Source: Gerris lacustris
Taxonomy: Eukaryota; Arthropoda; Insecta; Hemiptera; Gerridae
Reading direction: 5' to 3'
NCBI GenBank assembly: GCA_951217055.1
Contig: OX578283.1
Span: 67,040,475-67,104,474, forward strand
DNA length: 64,000 nucleotides
Below, in pieces: positions 20,863-63,485 of this stretch. The position numbers were made by a program, and so were the translations under genes. Each line of letters opens with the position of its first letter. The first letter of the stretch is position 1. The notes under the pieces were generated by a model. The model searched no databases and was not told the origin of the DNA. It saw only the letters and a list, made by a program, of their open reading frames with translations.

Positions 20863-20936
20863 CTCCTGTGCCGGGATTTGAACCACGGGCCTCTATATTT
20901 CCAGTATAGCGCTCTTCCATCTAAGCTACGCAGGAG
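20863..20936 (-). tRNA. tRNA-like sequence (pseudo), anticodon loop GGA
   Basis: Minus-strand cloverleaf. An acceptor-like stem (TCCTGCG against CACAGGA, one mismatch), a D-arm with a good A-box (TAGCTTAGATGG), a perfect 5 bp anticodon stem CTATA/TATAG around CTGGAAA, and a B-box-like GGTTCAAATCC. The anticodon would read GGA (Ser), but the long variable arm expected of tRNA-Ser is absent. The T-stem has mismatches that are shared by the other copies. Best seen as a tRNA-derived module carried by mobile DNA, not a working tRNA gene. Confidence 0.5.
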
Positions 20937-21210: not shown

Positions 21211-21284
21211 CTCCTGTGCCGGGATTTGAACCACGGGCCTCTATATTTCCAGTATAGCGCTCTTCCATCTAAGCTACGCAGGAG
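21211..21284 (-). tRNA. tRNA-like sequence (pseudo), second copy
   Basis: Identical over the whole cloverleaf to 20863-20936, as is the flanking sequence for about 35 bp on each side. The two therefore arose by recent duplication. Confidence 0.5.

Positions 21285-34750: not shown

Positions 34751-34817
<67 letters not shown>
34751..34817. repeat. (TA)n microsatellite
   Basis: An uninterrupted TA run abutting the outer end of the inverted Penelope copy. The same association occurs at 46975. Confidence 0.95.
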
Positions 34818-34821
<4 letters not shown>

Positions 34822-34885
34822 AGGCGCCTTATCTCAACTTGGGGGTTCGGTCAGGTAAATAAAAAATCAACTCCAAAATTTTCAC

Positions 34886-34935
34886 ATAGCCGACGTTTCG
34901 GCAACTATATTATGTTGCCATCTTCAGGGCGAGCC
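34886..34935 (-). ncRNA. Hammerhead-like motif in Penelope pLTR, copy 1
   Basis: Same motif as at 40091-40141, on the minus strand with its element, and identical across the core. Confidence 0.5.
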
Positions 34936-35286
34936 TATATAAAAACAAAAGTAATAGGTAAGAGGAGAGAAGGTAAGAATTTATAACAGTAAAGTAAAAG
35001 GTAAACAATATAAGTGGAAAATAGAAAAAAGAAGAAACAGAAAAAACCCGAGACAAGATCACTTACGTGAAGAACAGAGAATGGAGAGATTATAGCATAA
35101 AGATGGGGAAGAGAAACATAAAAGGTAGGAATTGGGAACAGAAGTTAAAAAGAGAGAACAAGGGGAGAGTATATGAAAAAGTAAACAAAGACGGTAAAGT
35201 GACAGCTTGGTGGCAGCAGAGCACCTAGTGGTGGAGGCGGCAAGTTAGTGCTGGAGGGTGCTGCGATCTAGCGACGAGAGGAAGAA

Positions 35287-36990
35287 TTATCCGGGCTCTA
35301 GGAGAAATTTGTAGAGATCACTAACACCTGCTACGTCGGATCTATAATTCATAGTGTGCCTGTTGCAGTGTATATATAACATTTCAAGGATTCTTCTTTT
35401 GTTAATATTTCTTTCCGAATGGAGGATCTTAATATTTTCAGCATTCAGGTCAGCTTGGTGTTGGAGATCAGTGCAGTGGCCTGCTAGAGCAGTAGTGTTC
35501 CGTGTCTTCTTGTCTATTGAGTTTTTATGTGCATTTAGTCTGTCCTTCATATAGCACATAGTTTCACCAATATAGACCATATCACAGTCCTTACAATTGA
35601 TCTGGTAGATAATATTCGACTGTTTCTTGGGGGATATGCTATCTTTGGTCTTCGAAAATAGGTTCCCAATAACCCTTGTTGTGTATTTTGCGAATACTTT
35701 GTCTGGCTTAACTTTTTTTAAAACACCTATGATACGTTCGGTGACGCCTTTAACATAGGGTAGTTTAGCGTAACCTCCTGTAGGTAGAGGTCTGTTTGGG
35801 GGGTTGGTACCCTGACTCCAGTTTTCAATAAGAGAGTGGACTGTACCACGAGGGTAGCCGTTTTTTCCCAGGATCTTCTTTATTGTGTTTTTGCTTTCTG
35901 TGATGTATTCTAAACTAGACATATCTAATATTCTATTAGTAAAATTACGAGCAACGTTCAATTTTGTAGACAAGGGATGGTGTGAGTCATAATGGAGAAC
36001 TCTTCCTGAGCTAGATGGTTTCTGGTACCATTTAGTAGATAAGGAGCCATCTGCGTTTTTTATTATTAGCATATCTAGGAAAGGGATGCTATTCTCTACA
36101 GGTAGTTCTATGGTAAATTGAATCCGGTTGTGAAAACTGTTAAAAATGTTTAAGGTTTGGTCGATCATATCATACGGAATCGATAAGAGCATGTCGTCTA
36201 CATATAGATGGCAAAGGTGAATTTCAATACCAATTTTGTTGAGGGAGATACTAATGGCTTCTTTCATAATTAGACTCGCTAAGCTGTTAGATAGAGGGCT
36301 ACCCATAGGGCAACCATATATTTGCATGTAAACTTGTCCTTGGGAGGTGAAATATCGGGTCTCGCAAGTGAAGTTGAGGATTTCAATGAAAAAACCTAGT
36401 GGAATAGTAGTGTACTTCTTGATTTCGACCCAGCGTTTACGTATGATATCTATAACGAGGTCGATTGGAACGTTAGTAAAGAGTGATGAAACATCTAGGG
36501 ATAGTAACGTCTCGTTCGAAGGTATAGATGTATTAATTATAATCTCTCTCATAGCAAGGGAATTATTGATATTAAATTCATTGTCGGTGATATTAATAAG
36601 GATATTGTTTAAGAACTTTGCTAGGTTGTAGGAGGGGCTGTTGATAAAAGAAACGATAGGTCTGAGGGGGATATCTTTTTTGTGGATTTTAGGGAGGCCG
36701 TATATACGGGGGGCCGTTGCATTTCTGCATTCCATCCGTGCGCCTTCAGAAGAACTGATATATCCGCCGTTCACAAGATCCTTAATGAAACCATTAGCTC
36801 TTTTTTGGTAGGAATTAGTAAGATCTTTACCTATTTTCTTGTATGTATTTGTATCACTGAGCATAGATAACATTTTGGTGTCATATTCAGATTTTAATAT
36901 GGCTACGGTGCGATTCCCTTTATCGGCACGGGTAATTAAAATTTCTGGATGTTTTTTTAGGAAATTTCTTGTTTTAAAATATGCTTTATT
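35287..36990 (-). pseudogene. Penelope-like RT plus GIY-YIG protein, N-terminally truncated
   Basis: An open frame of at least 567 codons with no internal stop. The first in-frame ATG (36873) is internal to the protein. It retains the DKG motif (upstream of that ATG), the catalytic RT aspartates including YVDD, and the C-terminal GIY-YIG nuclease with its Arg and Glu. Almost identical to the intact copy: one clear difference is TNRIL where the other copies have TKRIL. It lacks the N-terminal domain and its own start, so it cannot make the full protein. Confidence 0.85.
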
Positions 36991-36992
36991 GT

Positions 36993-37156
36993 ACTGCTTT
37001 AGCAGGCCACTGCACTGATCTCCAACACCAAGCTGACCTGAATGCTGAAAATATTAAGATCCTCCATTCGGAAAGAAATATTAACAAAAGAAGAATCCTT
37101 GAAATCTTATATATACAATGCAACAGGCACACTATGAATTATAGATCCGATGTAGC
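36993..37156 (+). pseudogene. Penelope-like element 3' coding remnant (interrupted)
   Basis: Plus-strand piece matching the end of the Penelope coding region from 'agcaggccactgcactgatc' (equivalent to about 42529), stopped at 37156 by the hAT insertion. It continues at 39690. It includes the GIY-YIG Glu region. The 8 bp GATGTAGC at the break is duplicated at 39690. Confidence 0.85.
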
Positions 37157-39689: not shown

Positions 39690-40246
39690 GATGTAGCAGG
39701 TGTTAGTGATCTCTACAAATTTCTCCTAGAGCCCGGATAATTCTTCCTCTCGTCGCTAGATCGCAGCACCCTCCAGCACTAACTTGCCGCCTCCACCACT
39801 AGGTGCTCTGCTGCCACCAAGCTGTCACTTTACCGTCTTTGTTTACTTTTTCATATACTCTCCCCTTGTTCTCTCTTTTTAACTTCTGTTCCCAATTCCT
39901 ACCTTTTATGTTTCTCTTCCCCATCTTTATGCTATAATCTCTCCATTCTCTGTTCTTCACGTAAGTGATCTTGTCTCGGGTTTTTTCTGTTTCTTCTTTT
40001 TTCTATTTTCCACTTATATTGTTTACCTTTTACTTTACTGTTATAAATTCTTACCTTCTCTCCTCTTACCTATTACTTTTGTTTTTATATAGGCTCGCCC
40101 TGAAGATGGCAACATAATATAGTTGCCGAAACGTCGGCTATGTGAAAAGTTTGGAGTTGATTTTTTATTTACCTGACCGAACCCCCAAGTTGAGATAAGG
40201 CGCCTTAAATATACATCTACGGTCGAGCTGAGTGGTGTGGGTGCTT
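39690..40246 (+). mobile_element. Penelope-like 3' end and pLTR (continuation of the split remnant)
   Basis: Resumes at GATGTAGCAGG, completes the last codons (stop at about 39738), and then gives a full pLTR to about 40210 plus a 36 bp junction ('acatctacggtcgagctgag'). This is followed directly by the intact element, so the two are in tandem, as is typical for Penelope elements. Confidence 0.85.
40091..40141 (+). ncRNA. Hammerhead-like motif in Penelope pLTR
   Basis: In order: GCC, CTGAAGA (fits CUGANGA), one extra T, a 6 bp stem II GGCAAC/GTTGCC with an 8-base loop, GAAAC, GTC, then GGC that pairs with the first GCC (stem I). Stem III would be only AC/GT with no loop, so folding as a dimer is more likely than as a single unit. 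Penelope-like elements are known to carry hammerhead motifs in their pLTRs (established). The extra T before stem II departs from the textbook core, so activity is uncertain. Confidence 0.55.
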
Positions 40247-40283
40247 TTATATATATATATATAAGGTACGTAAATTCATAAGT

Positions 40284-42728
40284 ATGGGGCTTTACCAAGA
40301 TATAAGAATTACTCATGGCAACGCTGCCTGGAGATTAGCTAAGAACCTCAGTAAAGAAACAAAACGGTTCTCTTACACCAAAGCCAGACGCATCTTTCTA
40401 CTACAATGCAGGTCTAGGCAAGTTTTTCCTAACTTTATACAACACTCCTGTAAACATCTAGAAACTAGGATACAGCCTAATCTCCCCACCAATAATGAAA
40501 TACATTCATTTATTCAACGCACTAAATTCAAGATCCTAAACTGTGAAATTAAGATTACCATTTATAACATTAAAAAACTAGAAGAAAATATTACAAATCT
40601 AAGATCCTCCATCCAGAACCTCCTACCATACGACATCTTTACTAGACTCACACGCTCTATTTCCCTGGCCCAAGACACTTCATTTCAAAAATGCCGTTAT
40701 AAACTCATATGCAAACTTAACTCTCTTTGCCGCGTCTATGGTTGTAATGGCCTCCAACTCCAAACTAATGATGAATGTAGTAGCTTCCACAACCTTACTA
40801 ATACGCCCATCCCGGAAGACTGTTGCAGACTGCTATCATTAGGCCCAAAATTCGCAATGAATCATCAAAAAGATAATTTTCCCTTGTTCGATTTCATTGG
40901 TGACCTGGAAACCATCATTCACGACTTACCTCCTGCTGAACAAACGCCTGTCCGCGCACAATGTGTGAATATCCTCACCAACTACAGAAATCGTATGTCA
41001 CAACATCATAACATTGATCAATACAATAAAGCATATATCAAAACAAGAAATTTCCTAAAAAAACATCCAGAAATTTTAATTACCCGTGCCGATAAAGGGA
41101 ATCGCACCGTAGCCATATTAAAATCTGAATATGACGCCAAAATGTTATCTATGCTCAGTGATACAAATACATACAAGAAAATAGATAAAGATCTTACTAA
41201 TTCCTACCAAAAAAGAGCTAATGGTTTCATTAAGGATCTTGTGAACGGCGGATATATCAGTTCTTCTGAAGGCGCACGGATGGAATGCAGAAATGCAACG
41301 GCCCCCCGTATATACGGCCTCCCTAAAATCCACAAAAAAGATATCCCCCTCAGACCTATCGTTTCTTTTATCAACAGCCCCTCCTACAACCTAGCAAAGT
41401 TCTTAAACAATATCCTTATTAATATCACCGACAATGAATTTAATATCAATAATTCCCTTGCTATGAGAGAGATTATAATTAATACATCTATACCTTCGAA
41501 CGAGACGTTACTATCCCTAGATGTTTCATCACTCTTTACTAACGTTCCAATCGACCTCGTTATAGATATCATACGTAAACGCTGGGTCGAAATCAAGAAG
41601 TACACTACTATTCCACTAGGTTTTTTCATTGAAATCCTCAACTTCACTTGCGAGACCCGATATTTCACCTCCCAAGGACAAGTTTACATGCAAATATATG
41701 GTTGCCCTATGGGTAGCCCTCTATCTAACAGCTTAGCGAGTCTAATTATGAAAGAAGCCATTAGTATCTCCCTCAACAAAATTGGTATTGAAATTCACCT
41801 TTGCCATCTATATGTAGACGACATGCTCTTATCGATTCCGTATGATATGATCGACCAAACCTTAAACATTTTTAACAGTTTTCACAACCGGATTCAATTT
41901 ACCATAGAACTACCTGTAGAGAATAGCATCCCTTTCCTAGATATGCTAATAATAAAAAACGCAGATGGCTCCTTATCTACTAAATGGTACCAGAAACCAT
42001 CTAGCTCAGGAAGAGTTCTCCATTATGACTCACACCATCCCTTGTCTACAAAATTGAACGTTGCTCGTAATTTTACTAAAAGAATATTAGATATGTCTAG
42101 TTTAGAATACATCACAGAAAGCAAAAACACAATAAAGAAGATCCTGGGAAAAAACGGCTACCCTCGTGGTACAGTCCACTCTCTTATTGAAAACTGGAGT
42201 CAGGGTACCAACCCCCCAAACAGACCTCTACCTACAGGAGGTTACGCTAAACTACCCTATGTTAAAGGCGTCACCGAACGTATCATAGGTGTTTTAAAAA
42301 AAGTTAAGCCAGACAAAGTATTCGCAAAATACACAACAAGGGTTATTGGGAACCTATTTTCGAAGACCAAAGATAGCATATCCCCCAAGAAACAGTCGAA
42401 TATTATCTACCAGATCAATTGTAAGGACTGTGATATGGTCTATATTGGTGAAACTATGTGCTATATGAAGGACAGACTAAATGCACATAAAAACTCAATA
42501 GACAAGAAGACACGGAACACTACTGCTCTAGCAGGCCACTGCACTGATCTCCAACACCAAGCTGACCTGAATGCTGAAAATATTAAGATCCTCCATTCGG
42601 AAAGAAATATTAACAAAAGAAGAATCCTTGAAATGTTATATATACACTGCAACAGGCACACTATGAATTATAGATCCGACGTAGCAGGTGTTAGTGATCT
42701 CTACAAATTTCTCCTAGAGCCCGGATAA
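40284..42728 (+). CDS. Penelope-like reverse transcriptase with GIY-YIG endonuclease
   Basis: An 814-codon protein that copies RNA into DNA at a nick made by its own nuclease. The N-terminal ~260 residues are basic and helical, as in the family. RT follows: DKG (about 270-272, the RT1 mark of Penelope-like enzymes), 'YGLPKIHK' (about 343), 'LSLDVSSLFTNVP' with the first catalytic Asp (about 412), 'GCPMGSPLSN', and YVDD (510-513). The C-terminal GIY-YIG domain has IYQI (about 709), a C-X2-C pair, YIGE (720-723), Arg 731 and Glu 783. All key residues are present, there are no stops or frameshifts, and the start has only ~20 bases of leader. The upstream pLTR of the tandem neighbour could supply a promoter. 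This is the only apparently functional gene in the window. Confidence 0.95.
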   Translation: MGLYQDIRITHGNAAWRLAKNLSKETKRFSYTKARRIFLLQCRSRQVFPNFIQHSCKHLETRIQPNLPTNNEIHSFIQRTKFKILNCEIKITIYNIKKLEENITNLRSSIQNLLPYDIFTRLTRSISLAQDTSFQKCRYKLICKLNSLCRVYGCNGLQLQTNDECSSFHNLTNTPIPEDCCRLLSLGPKFAMNHQKDNFPLFDFIGDLETIIHDLPPAEQTPVRAQCVNILTNYRNRMSQHHNIDQYNKAYIKTRNFLKKHPEILITRADKGNRTVAILKSEYDAKMLSMLSDTNTYKKIDKDLTNSYQKRANGFIKDLVNGGYISSSEGARMECRNATAPRIYGLPKIHKKDIPLRPIVSFINSPSYNLAKFLNNILINITDNEFNINNSLAMREIIINTSIPSNETLLSLDVSSLFTNVPIDLVIDIIRKRWVEIKKYTTIPLGFFIEILNFTCETRYFTSQGQVYMQIYGCPMGSPLSNSLASLIMKEAISISLNKIGIEIHLCHLYVDDMLLSIPYDMIDQTLNIFNSFHNRIQFTIELPVENSIPFLDMLIIKNADGSLSTKWYQKPSSSGRVLHYDSHHPLSTKLNVARNFTKRILDMSSLEYITESKNTIKKILGKNGYPRGTVHSLIENWSQGTNPPNRPLPTGGYAKLPYVKGVTERIIGVLKKVKPDKVFAKYTTRVIGNLFSKTKDSISPKKQSNIIYQINCKDCDMVYIGETMCYMKDRLNAHKNSIDKKTRNTTALAGHCTDLQHQADLNAENIKILHSERNINKRRILEMLYIHCNRHTMNYRSDVAGVSDLYKFLLEPG

Positions 42729-43078
42729 TTCTTCCTCTCGTCGCTAGATCGCAGCACCCTCCAGCACTAACTTGCCGCCTCCACCACTAGGTGCTCTGCT
42801 GCCACCAAGCTGTCACTTTACCGTCTTTGTTTACTTTTTCATATACTCTCCCCTTGTTCTCTCTTTTTAACTTCTGTTCCCAATTCCTACCTTTTATGTT
42901 TCTCTTCCCCATCTTTATGCTATAATCTCTCCATTCTCTGTTCTTCACGTAAGTGATCTTGTCTCGGGTTTTTTCTGTTTCTTCTTTTTTCTATTTTCCA
43001 CTTATATTGTTTACCTTTTACTTTACTGTTATAAATTCTTACCTTCTCTCCTCTTACCTATTACTTTTGTTTTTATAT

Positions 43079-43129
43079 AGGCTCGCCCTGAAGATGGCAA
43101 CATAATATAGTTGCCGAAACGTCGGCTAT
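43079..43129 (+). ncRNA. Hammerhead-like motif in Penelope pLTR (intact copy)
   Basis: Identical in core and stems to the motif at 40091-40141. It lies downstream of the intact gene, so transcripts through the tandem array would contain it on both sides of each unit. Confidence 0.55.
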
Positions 43130-43235
43130 GTGAAAATTTTGGAGTTGATTTTTTATTTACCTGACCGAACCCCCAAGTTGAGATAAGGCGCCTTAAATAT
43201 ACATCTACGGTCGAGCTGAGTGGTGTGGGTGCTTT

Positions 43236-43282
43236 TTGAAGCGAGCGTAGCGAGCTTCCTACATTCAACGAAATATGCTCCG

Positions 43283-43338
<56 letters not shown>

Positions 43339-44037
43339 AGTAACGTTTACGCGTGTGACGATAACTTGAGTAAAAGTTGACCGATTTAGTTGAAATTTGG
43401 TATACATGTTCCTCTTACTAATACTCAGGCTAAGTTCGTTGGACAGCGTGATCCGTCCATGAGTTCGCGCGCAACGCTCGCGTAAACGAGAGGTACAAAA
43501 ATTAAATTGGAATTTCAGGACGGGAAAAGATTCTATCATCATCTACTCGATGAGACGAACATTTTTTTCAAATAACATTTTTTACTAAAACCAACAGCGA
43601 CACCGCTATGACTTAATAAAGATCGCTAAAACTATTAAAGCGGACCTAAACGTTTATAATAGAGAAAACAACCTTTTTACCGATATCTTACGTTCTAACG
43701 AAACGATTTTAATAAAACTTCATATACACCATCTAATGCACAATTGAAACAGGTATGCAAAATTTCAACTTGATACAAGCAAAATTCTTTGCGTAGTGAC
43801 GAGATACATTTATAATAATTGTTTAAAAGCTACCGCGGGTGGTGAAGATTGTTAAAGTCGTAGCAGTGTATGGTTTGTTTAGGAAGGTGAGCTTTGTACC
43901 GAGTACCCCCACTCTTCCCTACCCCTCTTCCACTTATCTTCAACTATGACATTCATCATGATTAATAAATTTCAATATTCAGTATTTCATTGCAATACGC
44001 TCGCTTCAATGATAGAGCCACGCGATGCCTAGTATAT
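43236..44037 (+). mobile_element. ~800 bp insertion at the junction of two Penelope units
   Basis: Sits between 'ggtgtgggtgcttttt' and 'tatatacaaggtacg', which are adjacent at 40246-40263, so it came in after the tandem array formed. It begins with a 'gaagcgagcgtagcgagcttc' imperfect palindrome and has a (TGTC)n run (43281-43338). The body shares phrases with 30427-31353 ('ttgaccgatttagttgaaat', 'ttaaagcggacctaaacgtt'). Target duplication not clear. The minus frame 43153-43542 is a microsatellite read-through. Confidence 0.65.
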
Positions 44038-44062
44038 ATACAAGGTACGTAAATTCATAAGT

Positions 44063-46507
44063 ATGGGGCTTTACCAAGATATAAGAATTACTCATGGCAA
44101 CGCTGCCTGGAGATTAGCTAAGAACCTCAGTAAAGAAACAAAACGGTTCTCTTACACCAAAGCCAGACGCATCTTTCTACTACAATGCAGGTCTAGGCAA
44201 GTTTTTCCTAACTTTATACAACACTCCTGTAAACATCTAGAAACTAGGATACAGCCTAATCTCCCCACCAATAATGAAATACATTCATTTATTCAACGCA
44301 CTAAATTCAAGATCCTAAACTGTGAAATTAAGATTACCATTTATAACATTAAAAAACTAGAAGAAAATATTACAAATCTAAGATCCTCCATCCAGAACCT
44401 CCTACCATACGACATCTTTACTAGACTCACACGCTCTATTTCCCTGGCCCAAGACACTTCATTTCAAAAATGCCGTTATAAACTCATATGCAAACTTAAC
44501 TCTCTTTGCCGCGTCTATGGTTGTAATGGCCTCCAACTCCAAACTAATGATGAATGTAGTAGCTTCCACAACCTTACTAATACGCCCATCCCGGAAGACT
44601 GTTGCAGACTGCTATCATTAGGCCCAAAATTCGCAATGAATCATCAAAAAGATAATTTTCCCTTGTTCGATTTCATTGGTGACCTGGAAACCATCATTCA
44701 CGACTTACCTCCTGCTGAACAAACGCCTGTCCGCTCACAATGTGTGAATATCCTCACCAACTACAGAAATCATATGTCACAACATCATAACATTGATCAA
44801 TACAATAAAGCATATATCAAAACAAGAAATTTCCTAAAAAAACATCCAGAAATTTTAATTACCCGTGCCGATAAAGGGAATCGCACCGTAGCCATATTAA
44901 AATCTGAATATGACGCCAAAATGTTATCTATGCTCAGTGATACAAATACATACAAGAAAATAGGTAAAGATCTTACTAATTCCTACCAAAAAAGAGCTAA
45001 TGGTTTCATTAAGGATCTTGTGAACGGCGGATATATCAGTTCTTCTGAAGGCGCACGGATGGAATGCAGAAATGCAACGGCCCCCCGTATATACGGCCTC
45101 CCTAAAATCCACAAAAAAGATATCCCCCTCAGACCTATCGTTTCTTTTATCAACAGCCCCTCCTACAACCTAGCAAAGTTCTTAAACAATATCCTTATTA
45201 ATATCACCGACAATGAATTTAATATCAATAATTCCCTTGCTATGAGAGAGATTATAATTAATACATCTATACCTTCGAACGAGACGTTACTATCCCTAGA
45301 TGTTTCATCACTCTTTACTAACGTTCCAATCGACCTCGTTATAGATATCATACGTAAACGCTGGGTCGAAATCAAGAAGTACACTACTATTCCACTAGGT
45401 TTTTTCATTGAAATCCTCAACTTCACTTGCGAGACCCGATATTTCACCTCCCAAGGACAAGTTTACATGCAAATATATGGTTGCCCTATGGGTAGCCCTC
45501 TATCTAACAGCTTAGCGAGTCTAATTATGAAAGAAGCCATTAGTATCTCCCTCAACAAAATTGGTATTGAAATTCACCTTTGCCATCTATATGTAGACGA
45601 CATGCTCTTATCGATTCCGTATGATATGATCGACCAAACCTTAAACATTTTTAACAGTTTTCACAACCGGATTCAATTTACCATAGAACTACCTGTAGAG
45701 AATAGCATCCCTTTCCTAGATATGCTAATAATAAAAAACGCAGATGGCTCCTTATCTACTAAATGGTACCAGAAACCATCTAGCTCAGGAAGAGTTCTCC
45801 ATTAAGACTCACACCATCCCTTGTCTACAAAATTGAACGTTGCTCGTAATTTTACTAAAAGAATATTAGATATGTCTAGTTTAGAATACATCACAGAAAG
45901 CAAAAACACAATAAAGAAGATCCTGGGAAAAAACGGCTACCCTCGTGGTACAGTCCACTCTCTTATTGAAAACTGGAGTCAGGGTACCAACCCCCCAAAC
46001 AGACCTCTACCTACAGGAGGTTACGCTAAACTACCCTATGTTAAAGGCGTCACCGAACGTATCATAGGTGTTTTAAAAAAAGTTAAGCCAGACAAAGTAT
46101 TCGCAAAATACACAACAAGGGTTATTGGGAACCTATTTTCGAAGACCAAAGATAGCATATCCCCCAAGAAACAGTCGAATATTATCTTCCAGATCAATTG
46201 TAAGGACTGTGATATGGTCTATATTGGTGAAACTATGTGCTATATGAAGGACAGACTAAATGCACATAAAAACTCAATAGACAAGAAGACACGGAACACT
46301 ACTGCTCTAGCAGGCCACTGCACTGATCTCCAACACCAAGCTGACCTGAATGCTGAAAATATTAAGATCCTCCATTCGGAAAGAAATATTAACAAAAGAA
46401 GAATCCTTGAAATGTTATATATACACTGCAACAGGCACACTATGAATTATAGATCCGACGTAGCAGGTGTTAGTGATCTCTACAAATTTCTCCTAGAGCC
46501 CGGATAA
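44063..46507 (+). pseudogene. Penelope-like RT plus GIY-YIG, single nonsense mutation
   Basis: The same 814-codon frame as 40284-42728, but codon TAT (in 'LHYDSH') has become TAA at 45803-45805. This stops the protein after 580 residues, past YVDD and before the GIY-YIG domain. A downstream frame (45821-46507, first ATG-like start) keeps the nuclease. Other protein differences from the intact copy are few: VRSQ for VRAQ, NHMS for NRMS, IGKD for IDKD, IIFQ for IIYQ. The IGKD form is shared with the minus-strand copy, so IDKD is a private change in the intact copy. The mutation is recent; a truncated RT without nuclease might still be made. Confidence 0.9.
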
Positions 46508-46857
46508 TTCTTCCTCTCGTCGCTAGATCGCAGCACCCTCCAGCACTAACTTGCCGCCTCCACCACTAGGTGCTCTGCTGCCACCAAGCTGTCACTTTAC
46601 CGTCTTTGTTTACTTTTTCATATACTCTCCCCTTGTTCTCTCTTTTTAACTTCTGTTCCCAATTCCTACCTTTTATGTTTCTCTTCCCCATCTTTATGCT
46701 ATAATCTCTCCATTCTCTGTTCTTCACGTAAGTGATCTTGTCTCGGGTTTTTTCTGTTTCTTCTTTTTTCTATTTTCCACTTATATTGTTTACCTTTTAC
46801 TTTACTGTTATAAATTCTTACCTTCTCTCCTCTTACCTATTACTTTTGTTTTTATAT

Positions 46858-46908
46858 AGGCTCGCCCTGAAGATGGCAACATAATATAGTTGCCGAAACG
46901 TCGGCTAT
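46858..46908 (+). ncRNA. Hammerhead-like motif in Penelope pLTR, last unit
   Basis: Identical to the motif at 40091-40141 through the core and stems. Confidence 0.55.
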
Positions 46909-46972
46909 GTGAAAATTTTGGAGTTGATTTTTTATTTACCTGACCGAACCCCCAAGTTGAGATAAGGCGCCT

Positions 46973-46974
<2 letters not shown>

Positions 46975-47028
<54 letters not shown>

Positions 47029-48656: not shown

Positions 48657-48684
48657 CTGAAGATGATATAAATGTCGAAACACG
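48657..48684 (+). other. Hammerhead-like motif
   Basis: CTGAAGA, one extra T, a 4 bp stem GATA/TGTC with a TAAA loop, then GAAACACG. Core letters CUGANGA and GAAA are right. Stem III and the cleavage triplet are not clear, and it shows the same extra T as the Penelope pLTR motif. Confidence 0.4.
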
Positions 48685-50720: not shown

Positions 50721-53055
<2,335 letters not shown>

Positions 53056-53086
53056 ACAATTTGTGAGAGGCATTACGCCATGTCCT

Positions 53087-53129
53087 GCATCGTTTCGTTG
53101 CGTCCGACTCATCAGGGGCCCGACGATGC
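53087..53129 (-). ncRNA. Hammerhead ribozyme, satellite unit 1
   Basis: Same layout as the copy at 53689-53731 with full core (CTGATGA, GAAA, GTC). Stem II has one C/A mismatch (GTCG against CAAC). Might still work, weakly. Confidence 0.7.
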
Positions 53130-53386
53130 CCACCCAACTCTGGACCTATACCAGATCAAGAAGATCAGATATAGGACTTATCAGAGACGAGAGTGCTCTC
53201 ATACCGCCATTTTTGCTTGGCTGGCAAAACACAACAGCAATTTAATACCGTGTTTGCACACTGCAAAAGGCTACACAATTTGTGAGAGACACCAAGGGAT
53301 GTGCCACGCAAGCGTGACACATAGGAACTGTTCCAACAGCAGACATAACGTCATTAAGATGTTGTCTCGGCATTACGCCATGTCCT

Positions 53387-53429
53387 GCATCGTGTCGTTG
53401 CGTCCGACTCATCAGGGGCCCGACGATGC
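53387..53429 (-). ncRNA. Hammerhead ribozyme, satellite unit 2 (core mutated)
   Basis: Same layout, but GAAAC has become GACAC, replacing the conserved A14, and the stem II mismatch of unit 1 is present. Expected to be inactive. Confidence 0.7.
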
Positions 53430-53688
53430 CCACCCAACTCTGGACCTATACCAGATCAAGAAGATCAGATATAGGACTTATCAGAGACGAGCGTGCTCTC
53501 ATACCGCCATTCTTGCTTGGCTGGCAAAACACATCAGCAATGTAATACCGTGTTTTTGCACACTGCAATAGGCTACACAGTTTGTGAGAGACACCAAGGG
53601 ATGTGTCACGCAAGCGTGACACATAGGAACTGTTCCAACATCAGACATAACGTCATTAAGATGTTGGCTCGGCATTACGCCATGTCCT

Positions 53689-53731
53689 GCATCGTTTCGT
53701 CGCGTCCGACTCATCAGGGGCCCGACGATGC
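53689..53731 (-). ncRNA. Hammerhead ribozyme, satellite unit 3 (complete core)
   Basis: Minus strand, 43 bases in order: GCATCGT (stem III), C (cleavage site, so the triplet is GTC), GGGCCC (stem I), CTGATGA, GTCG-GACG-CGAC (perfect 4 bp stem II with 4-base loop), GAA, ACGATGC (perfect 7 bp partner of stem III, providing A15.1-U16.1). Every invariant core base of the hammerhead is present. Topology is type III (stem III open). Stem I is only the palindrome GGGCCC, so within one molecule it gives one or two pairs; a second molecule could give six. Confidence 0.8.
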
Positions 53732-53833
53732 CCACCCAACTCTGGACCTATACCAGATCAAGAAGATCAGATATAGGACTTATCAGAGACGAGCGTGCTT
53801 TCATACCGCCATTCTTGCTTGAAATATAACTTC

Positions 53834-53974
53834 TCGCTTCCACTACTGGAAGCATCTTAAGGGGTGAGGTGCATCGTGATGTTTACTTAAAGCAACAAGT
53901 ATTATCTTGATGTTGCTTCAAGTAAACATCACGATGCACCACATCTCAGAAGATGCTTCCAGTAGTGGAAGCGA
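53834..53974. mobile_element. Foldback element next to the ribozyme array
   Basis: About 140 bp with inverted arms of ~60 bp ('tcgcttccactactggaagc', 'tgcatcgtgatgtttactt' and complements) and a short loop. The outer part is itself a small palindrome (CTTCCACTACTGGAAG). No target duplication recognised. Confidence 0.8.
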
Positions 53975-54205
53975 AAGTCGGATGTTAACCCCTTCTTTTA
54001 AACGTATTGTTTATTAGTTGTTTTTAAAGTTTTGTGAAGATGAGCCGTTTAGGAAGAAATTATAAATAAATTAATTTTTACTATTTAATTTGTTATGTGA
54101 TGTGTTACTAGAGGTCATGTTAAGTTGTAGTTTTAATGTTAAGTTTAATGGGAAGATTGAAACTGGTAGAATTACTTTATATAAGTATAGACAAATAAAA
54201 TAGAC
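53975..54205. other. Short unassigned stretch
   Basis: No feature recognised. Confidence 0.4.
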
Positions 54206-54795
54206 TGCCAATTGGTGTGGCACGTAGCTTCCTCGCATCCTATCCACGTACTTTATTGATTTTATACTTTTACAAGCTATTATTGCCTAATGTGTCTAAT
54301 TGTTTCCCCCGTTTTTTTAACCTGTCAAAATTGTTTGGAGTTTTACACAAAAATTAAAGTATCAATTTTGCCATAGTTAAAAAGCGCAGATGGTTCAAAT
54401 TTATCTAGGGCTATCTGCGGACTACTTTCAATAAACTATACAATTTTCATTCAAATCAGATAAGTACTTTTGAAGCTATAGGTGTAAATAAATGTATGTT
54501 TGTGCGCATGTGAAAGAGAAACAAATTAGCGCAGAAGGTTGAAACTTATATGGGACCAACAATGAGCTAATTATGACCTACCATCCGAATTTCATTAAAA
54601 TCGGATGTGTAGTTTTTAAGATATGTTGGTTCGCAAAAATTGAACGACAGACCGACAGACCGACACGGAACCAAAAATGTTCCCTGATGTCTGAAACGGA
54701 TTTCTGTCTTGGAATTTTTGAAATCGGAGACCTAAAATTTTTTCGTTCTTCAGAACGATCACATAGCTTCCGTTACCTTCGGTAAGCTCGGAAGC
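54206..54795 (-). repeat. Family E, full-length minus-strand copy
   Basis: From 'gactgccaattggtgtggca' to 'ccttcggtaagctcggaagc'. One of the best-preserved copies. The frame 54573-54785 is the usual read-through of this repeat. Confidence 0.8.
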
Positions 54796-62595: not shown

Positions 62596-63485
62596 TTGAA
62601 TATAGCTTCCTCGAGTCCTATTAATGTCGAACATAGATTCCTTGCGTCCTATTAATGTGGAATATAGCTTCTTCGAGTCCTATTAATGTAGAACATAGAT
62701 TCCTCGCGTCCTATTAATGTATAACATAGCTTCCTCGAGTCCTATTGTAGAACATAGCTTCCTCACGTCCTATTAATGCAGAACATAGCTTCCTCGCGTC
62801 CTATTAATGTAAGACATAGCTTCCTCACGTCCTATTAATGTAGAACATAGCTTCCTCACGTCCTATTAATGCAGAACATAGCTTCCTCGCGTCCTATTAA
62901 TGTAAGACATAGCTTCCTCACGTCCTATTAATGTAGAACATAGCTTCCTCACGTCCTATTAATGCAGAACATAGCTTCCTCGCGTCCTATTAATGTAAGA
63001 CATAGCTTCCTCTCGTCCCATTAATGTGGAATATAGCTTCTTCGCGTCCTATTAATGTAGAACATAAATTCCTCGCGTCCTATTAATGTATAACATAGCT
63101 TCCTCGAGTCCTATTGTAGAACATAGCTTCCTCACGTCCTATTAATGCAGAACATAGCTTCCTCGCGTCCTATAATTGTAAGACATAGCTTCCTCACGTC
63201 CTATTAATGTAGAACATAGCTTCCTCACGTCCTATTAATGCAGAACATAGCTTCCTCGCGTCCTATTAATGTAAGACATAGCTTCCTCTCGTCCCATTAA
63301 TGTGGAATATAGCTTCCTCGCATCCTATTAATGTAGAACATAGCTTCCTCTCGTTCTATTATTGTAGAACATAGCTTCCTCGAGTACTATTATTGTAGAA
63401 CATAGCTTCCTCGCGTCCTATTATTGTAGAACATAGCTTCCTCGCGTCCTATTAATGTAGAACATAGCTTCCTCGCGTCCTATCA
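62596..63485 (-). repeat. 31 bp satellite derived from family E
   Basis: About 28 units of 'aacatagcttcctcgcgtcc' plus 'tattaatgtag'. The unit equals the terminal part of family E in minus orientation. Sub-variants (GCAGAAC, TAAGAC, TAGAAC, TGGAAT) recur in order. This gives a three-unit (~93 bp) period and a longer ~380 bp repeat of the whole pattern (compare 62645-62990 with 63025-63300). Confidence 0.9.

Follow-up and report, generated by a model that had tools for sequence, protein, structure and literature searches.

A loopless type III hammerhead repeat in Gerris lacustris, probably copied from circular RNA by a Penelope-type reverse transcriptase

The window, that is, the whole 64,000-nucleotide stretch of Gerris lacustris DNA analysed here, holds at 53054-53821 a non-coding repeat of 302 bp in a broken copy that comprises two full units and two partial ones. 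We consider it probable (roughly 0.7) that this repeat is a non-autonomous, retrozyme-like retroelement whose 302-nt unit carries a hammerhead that probably acts only as a dimer, and that it is copied from circular RNA by a Penelope-type reverse transcriptase (RT). The first-pass annotation had noted type III hammerhead ribozymes in a tandem repeat and proposed that the array could give rise to unit-length circular RNAs; the observation is confirmed, and the interpretation is supported and appears largely right. The features of the window are collected in Table 1.

The array in the window and its hammerhead motif

Tandem Repeats Finder reports a period of 302, 2.5 copies and 96% matches at 53069-53821, which bears out the tandem repeat of about 300 bp that had been placed at 53056-53820. 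Beyond that extent, the feature also reaches left to an inverted 39-bp fragment (52947-52985) and to (AT)n tracts. A 253-aa frame over the array (52810-53571) was rejected as a gene, being the translated repeat, and Rfam matches to mir-3817, mir-297 and a pestivirus UTR in or beside the array were rejected with scores far under their gathering scores. Directly to the right of the array lies a long near-perfect inverted repeat (53823-53975), probably a MITE, which Rfam scores at 46.5 bits as mir-3817, whose gathering score is 90. Elsewhere in the window, a 31-bp minisatellite (62598-63483, about 29 copies) has a unit resembling a single stretch near the array (about 54220-54250), and two tRNA matches of equal score lie 348 bp apart on the minus strand (20863-20935 and 21211-21283).

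Three minus-strand matches to the Rfam model Hammerhead_3 (RF00008), one per unit, agree with the three ribozyme sites claimed earlier. The E-values for copies 3, 1 and 2 are 8.8e-8, 1.4e-5 and 0.0016 in a search of 901 bases, and copy 3 reaches 6.2e-6 when the whole window is searched. All three scores are under the gathering score of RF00008 (48.5, against 42.6 bits for the best), and a default Rfam scan of the window thus shows none; the covariance-model search proposed by the first-pass annotation does yield matches, though under this curated threshold. As had been described, copy 3 has all core bases, a 7-bp stem III (GCATCGT/ACGATGC), a 4-bp stem II (GTCG/CGAC) with the loop GACG, the triplet GTC, and GGGCCC as its entire stem I. 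Cleavage is expected between complement bases 53724 and 53723. The motif reads GCATCGTC / GGGCCC / CTGATGAG / stem II / CGAAAC / GATGC, and its elements follow the order stem III, site, stem I, core, stem II, core and stem III, which is that of type III.

The hammerhead is not a product of chance, because 82 of the 93 copies spanning the motif (in 21 loci, the window and 20 others) match the 43-nt consensus exactly, and because a core pattern, with the stem I and stem II loop letters free and two stem III pairs required, gives 1434 + 1463 = 2897 matches in the 937-Mb host genome against 0 + 0 for the reversed pattern. The 11 non-exact copies include both decayed window copies. The first-pass annotation had named core bases substituted at random elsewhere in the genome as an outcome that would speak against a ribozyme; these copies show no such thing. 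The features of RF00008, a core CUGANGA ... GAAA and an NUH site, are present in copy 3 and in the same 82 of 93 copies; stem III is open and stem II is looped as in the model, but the loop of stem I has zero nucleotides, in departure from the RF00008 layout in which stems I and II are looped. The earlier view that a type III order with a self-complementary, loopless stem I is unusual for animals also holds.

A pattern for the same loopless type III layout (GTCN6CTGATGAGN10CGAAAC) matches 13 stretches of prokaryote genomes and 11 of viral contigs, which we take as non-hammerheads. A palindromic hexamer is present in none of these 24 stretches, none adds at least 3 pairs to both stem II and stem III, and one similar sequence is common to 9 of the 11 viral stretches and one bacterial stretch; an exact 18-base pattern gave 0 matches in viral contigs. 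Among the papers listed in a limited literature search, mostly outside subscription journals, we saw none that describes a type III hammerhead whose stem I is both loopless and self-complementary.

Table 1. Features of the repeat array and of the Penelope-like elements in the window
Position	Strand	Feature	Evidence
34808..36996	-	Third Penelope-like copy; tail-less 3' end in (AT)n, then inverted fragment 36992-37156	Profile and sequence comparison
39690..43236	+	Penelope-like element with RVT_1 and weak GIY-YIG match; 3' end with 36-nt tail; type proposed to mobilise the repeat	Profile and sequence comparison
44033..46986	+	Second Penelope-like copy; frame broken by a stop; tail-less 3' end running into (AT)n	Frame, sequence comparison
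52809..53053		(AT)n target-type tracts, split by the 39-bp fragment	Sequence, Tandem Repeats Finder
52947..52985		Inverted 39-bp unit fragment (positions 203 to 165, the stretch between both start sites)	100% identity with 53533-53571, inverted
53054..53068		Array start at the unit-206 start site, adjoining (AT)n; leading partial unit mostly missing	Sequence and junction listing
53069..53368	-	Full first unit, 300 bp	Self-comparison and junction listing
53087..53129	-	Hammerhead copy 1, single stem II mismatch	Hammerhead_3 (RF00008), 34.8 bits
53369..53670	-	Full second unit, 302 bp	Tandem-repeat and self-comparison
53387..53429	-	Hammerhead copy 2, decayed: stem II mismatch and core GAAA to GACA	Hammerhead_3 (RF00008), 27.6 bits
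53671..53821	-	Partial third unit (unit positions 1-151), intact hammerhead inside	Tandem-repeat and self-comparison
53689..53731	-	Type III hammerhead copy 3, exact genomic 43-nt consensus	Hammerhead_3 (RF00008), 42.6 bits

The palindromic stem I and the two-copy fold

GGGCCC is the sole stem I sequence, as had been reported, but this stem has no loop nucleotides and therefore cannot close within a single molecule. For a single 48-nt motif, RNAfold predicts a different, non-hammerhead fold (-15.1 kcal/mol), whereas for two such motifs RNAcofold predicts a double hammerhead (-41.9 kcal/mol) with two intermolecular 7-bp stems III (a strand swap), two stems II and a 6-bp GGGCCC duplex as the shared stem I. 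When the hexamer was permuted (n = 20, RNAcofold), the double hammerhead was obtained from GGGCCC and GCCGGC only. These predictions suggest that the hammerhead probably assembles only from two copies. The double hammerhead mirrors the dimers that, in the parts of the two sources on which we draw, are proposed for type I ribozymes whose helix III is short and palindromic (PMC3088659, PMC7229834).

In a 422-nt RNA with two hammerheads and their natural spacer, the best fold (-153.2 kcal/mol) is without the shared stem I or swapped stem III pairs, and a forced double hammerhead (-150.7) is 2.5 kcal/mol less stable. This gap falls inside the usual error of such fold predictions, and the result thus neither makes nor breaks the dimer model; it does count against the simplest form of that model. 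The best fold of the 302-nt circle has an energy of -99.2, against a mean of -85.7 for 200 shuffles (4 of the 200 reach -99.2), and neither stem II nor stem III pairs form in it. Among 100 listed stem I hexamers, 12 differ from GGGCCC and none is another palindrome (counted by eye), so that the covariation sought in other genomic copies does not appear in stem I.

A further reading is that one motif acts by itself, its stem I strained or left open, or that the hammerhead is inactive, the palindrome being incidental in either case; this reading bears on the ribozyme step alone and is compatible with the insertion model below. The absence of stem I covariation among the listed hexamers fits it, as do the decay of 11 of the 93 copies, the alignment of one copy by the Rfam model with a zero-length loop, and the longer RNA in which the double hammerhead is not the best fold. 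However, a stem without loop nucleotides cannot close, one motif is given another fold by RNAfold while two yield the double hammerhead, and 82 of the 93 copies carry the 43-nt motif unchanged. We regard a working single motif, or an inactive one, as unlikely, although it retains an appreciable chance.

Start sites, arms and the template

The loci were fetched in sets of 20, 18 and 20; L060-L062 are the same places as L067-L069 and were counted once, and L001-L020, which overlap the window or fetched loci, were left out. Of 60 loci (the window and 59 others), 39 are two-sided, with an inverted junction at which the units coming inward from either end meet; the other 21 loci are one-sided or outward-pointing. 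The outer starting ends are concentrated at two sites, which take up 86 of the 97 ends (50 at unit 198-216 and 36 at 160-170, with 11 elsewhere). In young copies the start sites are position 206 (TACACAATTTG) and position 165 (ATCAGC), 41 nt apart and in many cases directly abutting (AT)n. Across the genome, a pattern that joins (AT)n to 206 gives 84 + 81 matches and one that joins it to 165 gives 321 + 328, with 0 for the reversed-pattern controls of either; the 206 pattern is stricter than the 165 pattern, and the two counts are thus not comparable.

It is also evident that opposite ends of a locus usually differ. Both ends are classed in 32 two-sided loci, of which 26 are mixed (206/165; P = 0.0005 against one half), 3 are 165/165 and 3 are 206/206, and a further 7 two-sided loci have at least one end unclassed. 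On contig C1, all 13 convergent neighbour pairs within 10 kb are mixed among the places listed (29 for the 206 site and, for the 165 site, the first 100, a list that stops at 139.26 Mb); 2 of the 13 (L028 and L058) also belong to the first locus set, and 2 outward and 2 same-direction neighbour pairs are found as well. Several loci carry about one unit. Taken by their ends and arms, the copies look like retroelement insertions and not like plain satellite.

Some loci show further arrangements. An outward topology is seen in L052 and at 52947-53068 of the window, where (TA)n separates a 165 end from a 206 end facing it and the arms point outward, and the outer ends of L052 are near the ribozyme cleavage site (51 and 56). 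In the left flank of L050, a tiny insert within (AT)n consists of nothing beyond the initial bases of two 206-type ends, as though the two primers had halted almost immediately. In L081 and L073 the 206 start comes after the palindrome-like ACACAAATTGTGT in the RNA, and at 40173-46980 of the window the Penelope-like short end likewise comes after a palindrome (TAAGGCGCCTTA).

The units of one locus are closely alike. Among 74 full units from 21 loci, 13 of which have a single full unit only, units differ at 0.43 positions within a locus (360 pairs) versus 7.15 between loci (2341 pairs). A private variant is present in every covering unit of both arms in 4 of 39 loci, namely L039 (25 of 25 units), L040 (5 of 5), L057 (4 of 4) and L025, where one private variant is in 3 of 3 units and another in 2 of 3. 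In L031 a private variant is in 2 of 2 units and covered by one arm only, and in the window one is in 2 of 3 units. L029 is a counter-example: it has 6 distinct units of 7 and six private variants each on some units only, several of them restricted to a subset of its plus-arm units. Of 21 loci that have at least 2 full units, 19 are uniform in unit length, the exceptions being the window (300 and 302) and one L037 unit, and lengths particular to a locus are 308 bp on both arms in L065, 307 in L063 and 301 in L064. The uniformity within loci could be explained most simply by a small RNA circle that is read repeatedly. If both DNA ends primed on one circle and each start site were usable once, this would explain why the two ends usually differ. 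From the genomic copies we infer a circular template with a two-site, two-strand start.

One locus, L033, is one-sided, begins exactly at the predicted 5' product end of the ribozyme and ends at 206, with an 11-bp target duplication; it keeps an uncut internal unit. Inner arm ends fall within 3 nt of the cleavage site in 7 of 100 cases against 2.3 expected (P = 0.009), all 7 coming from the first sample (70 ends) and none from the 30 ends of the second; a scan over all positions in the first sample gives P = 0.17. These ends were read by eye, and some unclear second-arm ends of later loci were left out. That arm ends mark ribozyme-cut RNA is weakly supported by these data, which are suggestive only. 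Target duplications of 11-12 bp, flush or 1 nt off, are present in 3 of the 20 loci without (AT)n flanks (L033, L054 and L077, the last with one mismatch), and the other 17 have no clear duplication, an 11-bp match in L072 not being at the ends; in a control, 3 of 60 mismatched pairs reached 10 bp.

A Penelope-type enzyme might instead copy long linear multimeric transcripts, with no circle and no need for ribozyme activity. Such copying would agree with the finding that ribozyme cleavage is unnecessary for insertion of an anole element in vitro (PMC11167929), with the tandem arrangement of Penelope-like elements themselves, with the uncut internal unit of L033, and with the two-hammerhead transcript for which the active fold is not the best prediction. 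It would, however, require an RNA of more than 7 kb with intact hammerheads in the case of L039, a source array already bearing each private variant and unit length, and the reading of such long RNA by both arms, and we hold it to be quite improbable. Ordinary satellite DNA, formed by unequal crossing-over or rolling-circle DNA replication with the hammerhead as a relic, would fit the homogenised units and head-to-tail arrays of up to 23 full units (L039), but it is very hard to reconcile with hundreds of dispersed copies that start at two fixed points beside (AT)n, with arms converging in 39 of 60 loci, with the same private variant filling both inverted arms in four loci, and with the number of loci that hold about one unit.

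The window holds three Penelope-like copies (Table 1). The two frames scanned have RVT_1 and GIY-YIG matches, the latter at 22.1 and 22.8 bits with a cut-off of 22.6, and all 7 named relatives of the protein among the matches listed (120 of 2006) belong to the ladybird Coccinella septempunctata. Among the four Penelope-like 3' regions there are two that stop at ..GGCGCCTTAAATAT in (AT)n, while the others have an extra 36-nt tail, one of these running into (AT)n. No long sequence is common to the repeat unit and the Penelope-like copies of the window, and the mobilising element may thus be another. The copies also carry CTGAAGATGGCAAC...GTTGCCGAAACGTC at 40100, 43088 and 46867 (+) and at 34927 (-), a motif that looks like a type I hammerhead in minimal form. 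Around 43088 the Rfam models match no hammerhead with E up to 10, nor do they at any of these sites in a window scan with E up to 5, and RNAcofold gave no clean double hammerhead for the motif. Another possible minimal hammerhead-like motif is CTGAAGATGATATAAATGTCGAAACACG between TTAACA/TGTTAA at 48657 (+).

In the work of Frangieh et al. (2024; PMC11167929), a Penelope-like protein that had been purified is reported to cleave AT-rich DNA, to extend both strands and to start at two internal RNA sites. The authors saw the top strand and the bottom strand behave alike in their start sites, and the segment separating the two RNA sites is an optional 30-40 bp 'tail' of genomic copies. In the repeat, the two alternative insertion ends (206 and 165) are 41 nt apart, which we score as agreeing with the 30-40 bp, and the (AT)n flanks and convergent arms correspond to an AT-rich target and the extension of both strands. 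By this analogy the insertion pattern matches the published Penelope-like biochemistry. In the parts of their paper considered here, Cervera and de la Pena (PMC7229834) propose Penelope-like elements from co-existence and similar features, and the start-site footprint here is the more direct case.

A proposed cycle and its relation to known elements

We propose a cycle in five steps. The arrays would be transcribed on the minus strand. Since stem I is the bare palindrome GGGCCC and one hammerhead cannot close alone, two hammerheads, on the same or different RNAs, would pair GGGCCC with GGGCCC, swap stem III strands and cut; the fold is predicted for isolated motifs, and activity is presumed from it. 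The unit-length RNAs would be ligated into circles, and a single circle without a partner should resist its own ribozyme; this supposed immunity of monomer circles is the boldest step of the model. A Penelope-type RT with a GIY-YIG nuclease would then open (AT)n DNA and extend both 3' ends on one circle, with one end usually begun at unit 206 and the second at 165. Genomic copies show the fixed starts, the paired arms, and variants and unit lengths common to both arms; the enzyme type is the likely one from its footprint. By going round the circle repeatedly, the RT would lay down almost identical units in tandem on both arms, and the arms would be joined head to head at a point that varies; this is the pattern that the genomic copies display. 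The full combination, a copy-number-gated ribozyme in which multimers are cut and the single circle is immune, with two Penelope-type RTs reading one circle from two sites at one DNA break and writing convergent arrays, is offered tentatively, at a little under even odds.

As parts of Cervera and de la Pena (2020; PMC7229834) describe them, metazoan non-LTR retrozymes are similar in having dispersed tandem units of 150-450 bp with one hammerhead each, target duplications of more than 4 bp when present (11-12 bp here), Penelope-like elements in the same genome, and circular RNA as the proposed template. They are described with type I hammerheads, unlike the type III with a loopless palindromic stem I found here, and the repeat is therefore not a member of the published metazoan type I retrozyme family. 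The element appears to work like a retrozyme, and we file it under that kind as a variant. The mobilising enzyme and the priming are left open in those parts of PMC7229834, whereas the insertion ends here give a Penelope-type two-site footprint. Plant LTR retrozymes, as outlined in part of PMC4918200, have a type III hammerhead and a circular RNA intermediate (proposed here), but they are 600-1000 nt long, with LTRs of about 350 bp, 4-bp target duplications and a looped stem I. With its 302-bp unit, no LTR layout in the loci read and target duplications of 11-12 bp, the repeat stands apart from them.

Penelope-like elements and Terminons have minimal type I hammerheads whose reduced helix is palindromic. 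As here, one helix has shrunk almost to nothing in these ribozymes, which may self-cleave as dimers, but the reduced one is helix III, whereas it is helix I of a type III hammerhead here (PMC7761336, in part). The same difference, helix III in a type I ribozyme, separates the repeat from those of newt, axolotl and Aedes, for which dimer action is proposed and in which a palindromic short helix or loop is able to pair between two ribozymes (parts of PMC7229834 and PMC3088659). Type III hammerheads do occur in animals, in termite and fly genomes and in delta-like RNAs of toad and termite, but with a long helix I contacting loop II where helix I here is loopless, and in the portion of PMC7936874 cited they are not described as this kind of repeat. 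PAc of Anolis (PMC11167929) has two internal start sites 30-40 nt apart, an AT-rich target and extension of both strands, as here, and its insertion in vitro is unaffected by ribozyme mutants; unlike the repeat, it is autonomous and coding, with no convergent tandem arrays described.

In the parts of Cervera and de la Pena (2020; PMC7229834) that bear on this, two things were left open: what stops the ribozyme from re-opening a circle of RNA, and by which enzyme such circles are made into tandem copies in the genome. For the first, the element suggests a built-in answer, no partner, no ribozyme; for the second, it gives genomic evidence in the form of two-site, two-strand Penelope-type starts on an apparently single circular template. 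The element is at odds with a suggestion of Perreault et al. The insertion pattern, with two fixed starts, convergent arms and shared private variants, independently points to circular RNA templates and Penelope-type target-primed reverse transcription. As copies with sharp ends number in the hundreds, the genome can be read for priming, for rolling synthesis and for the joining of ends.
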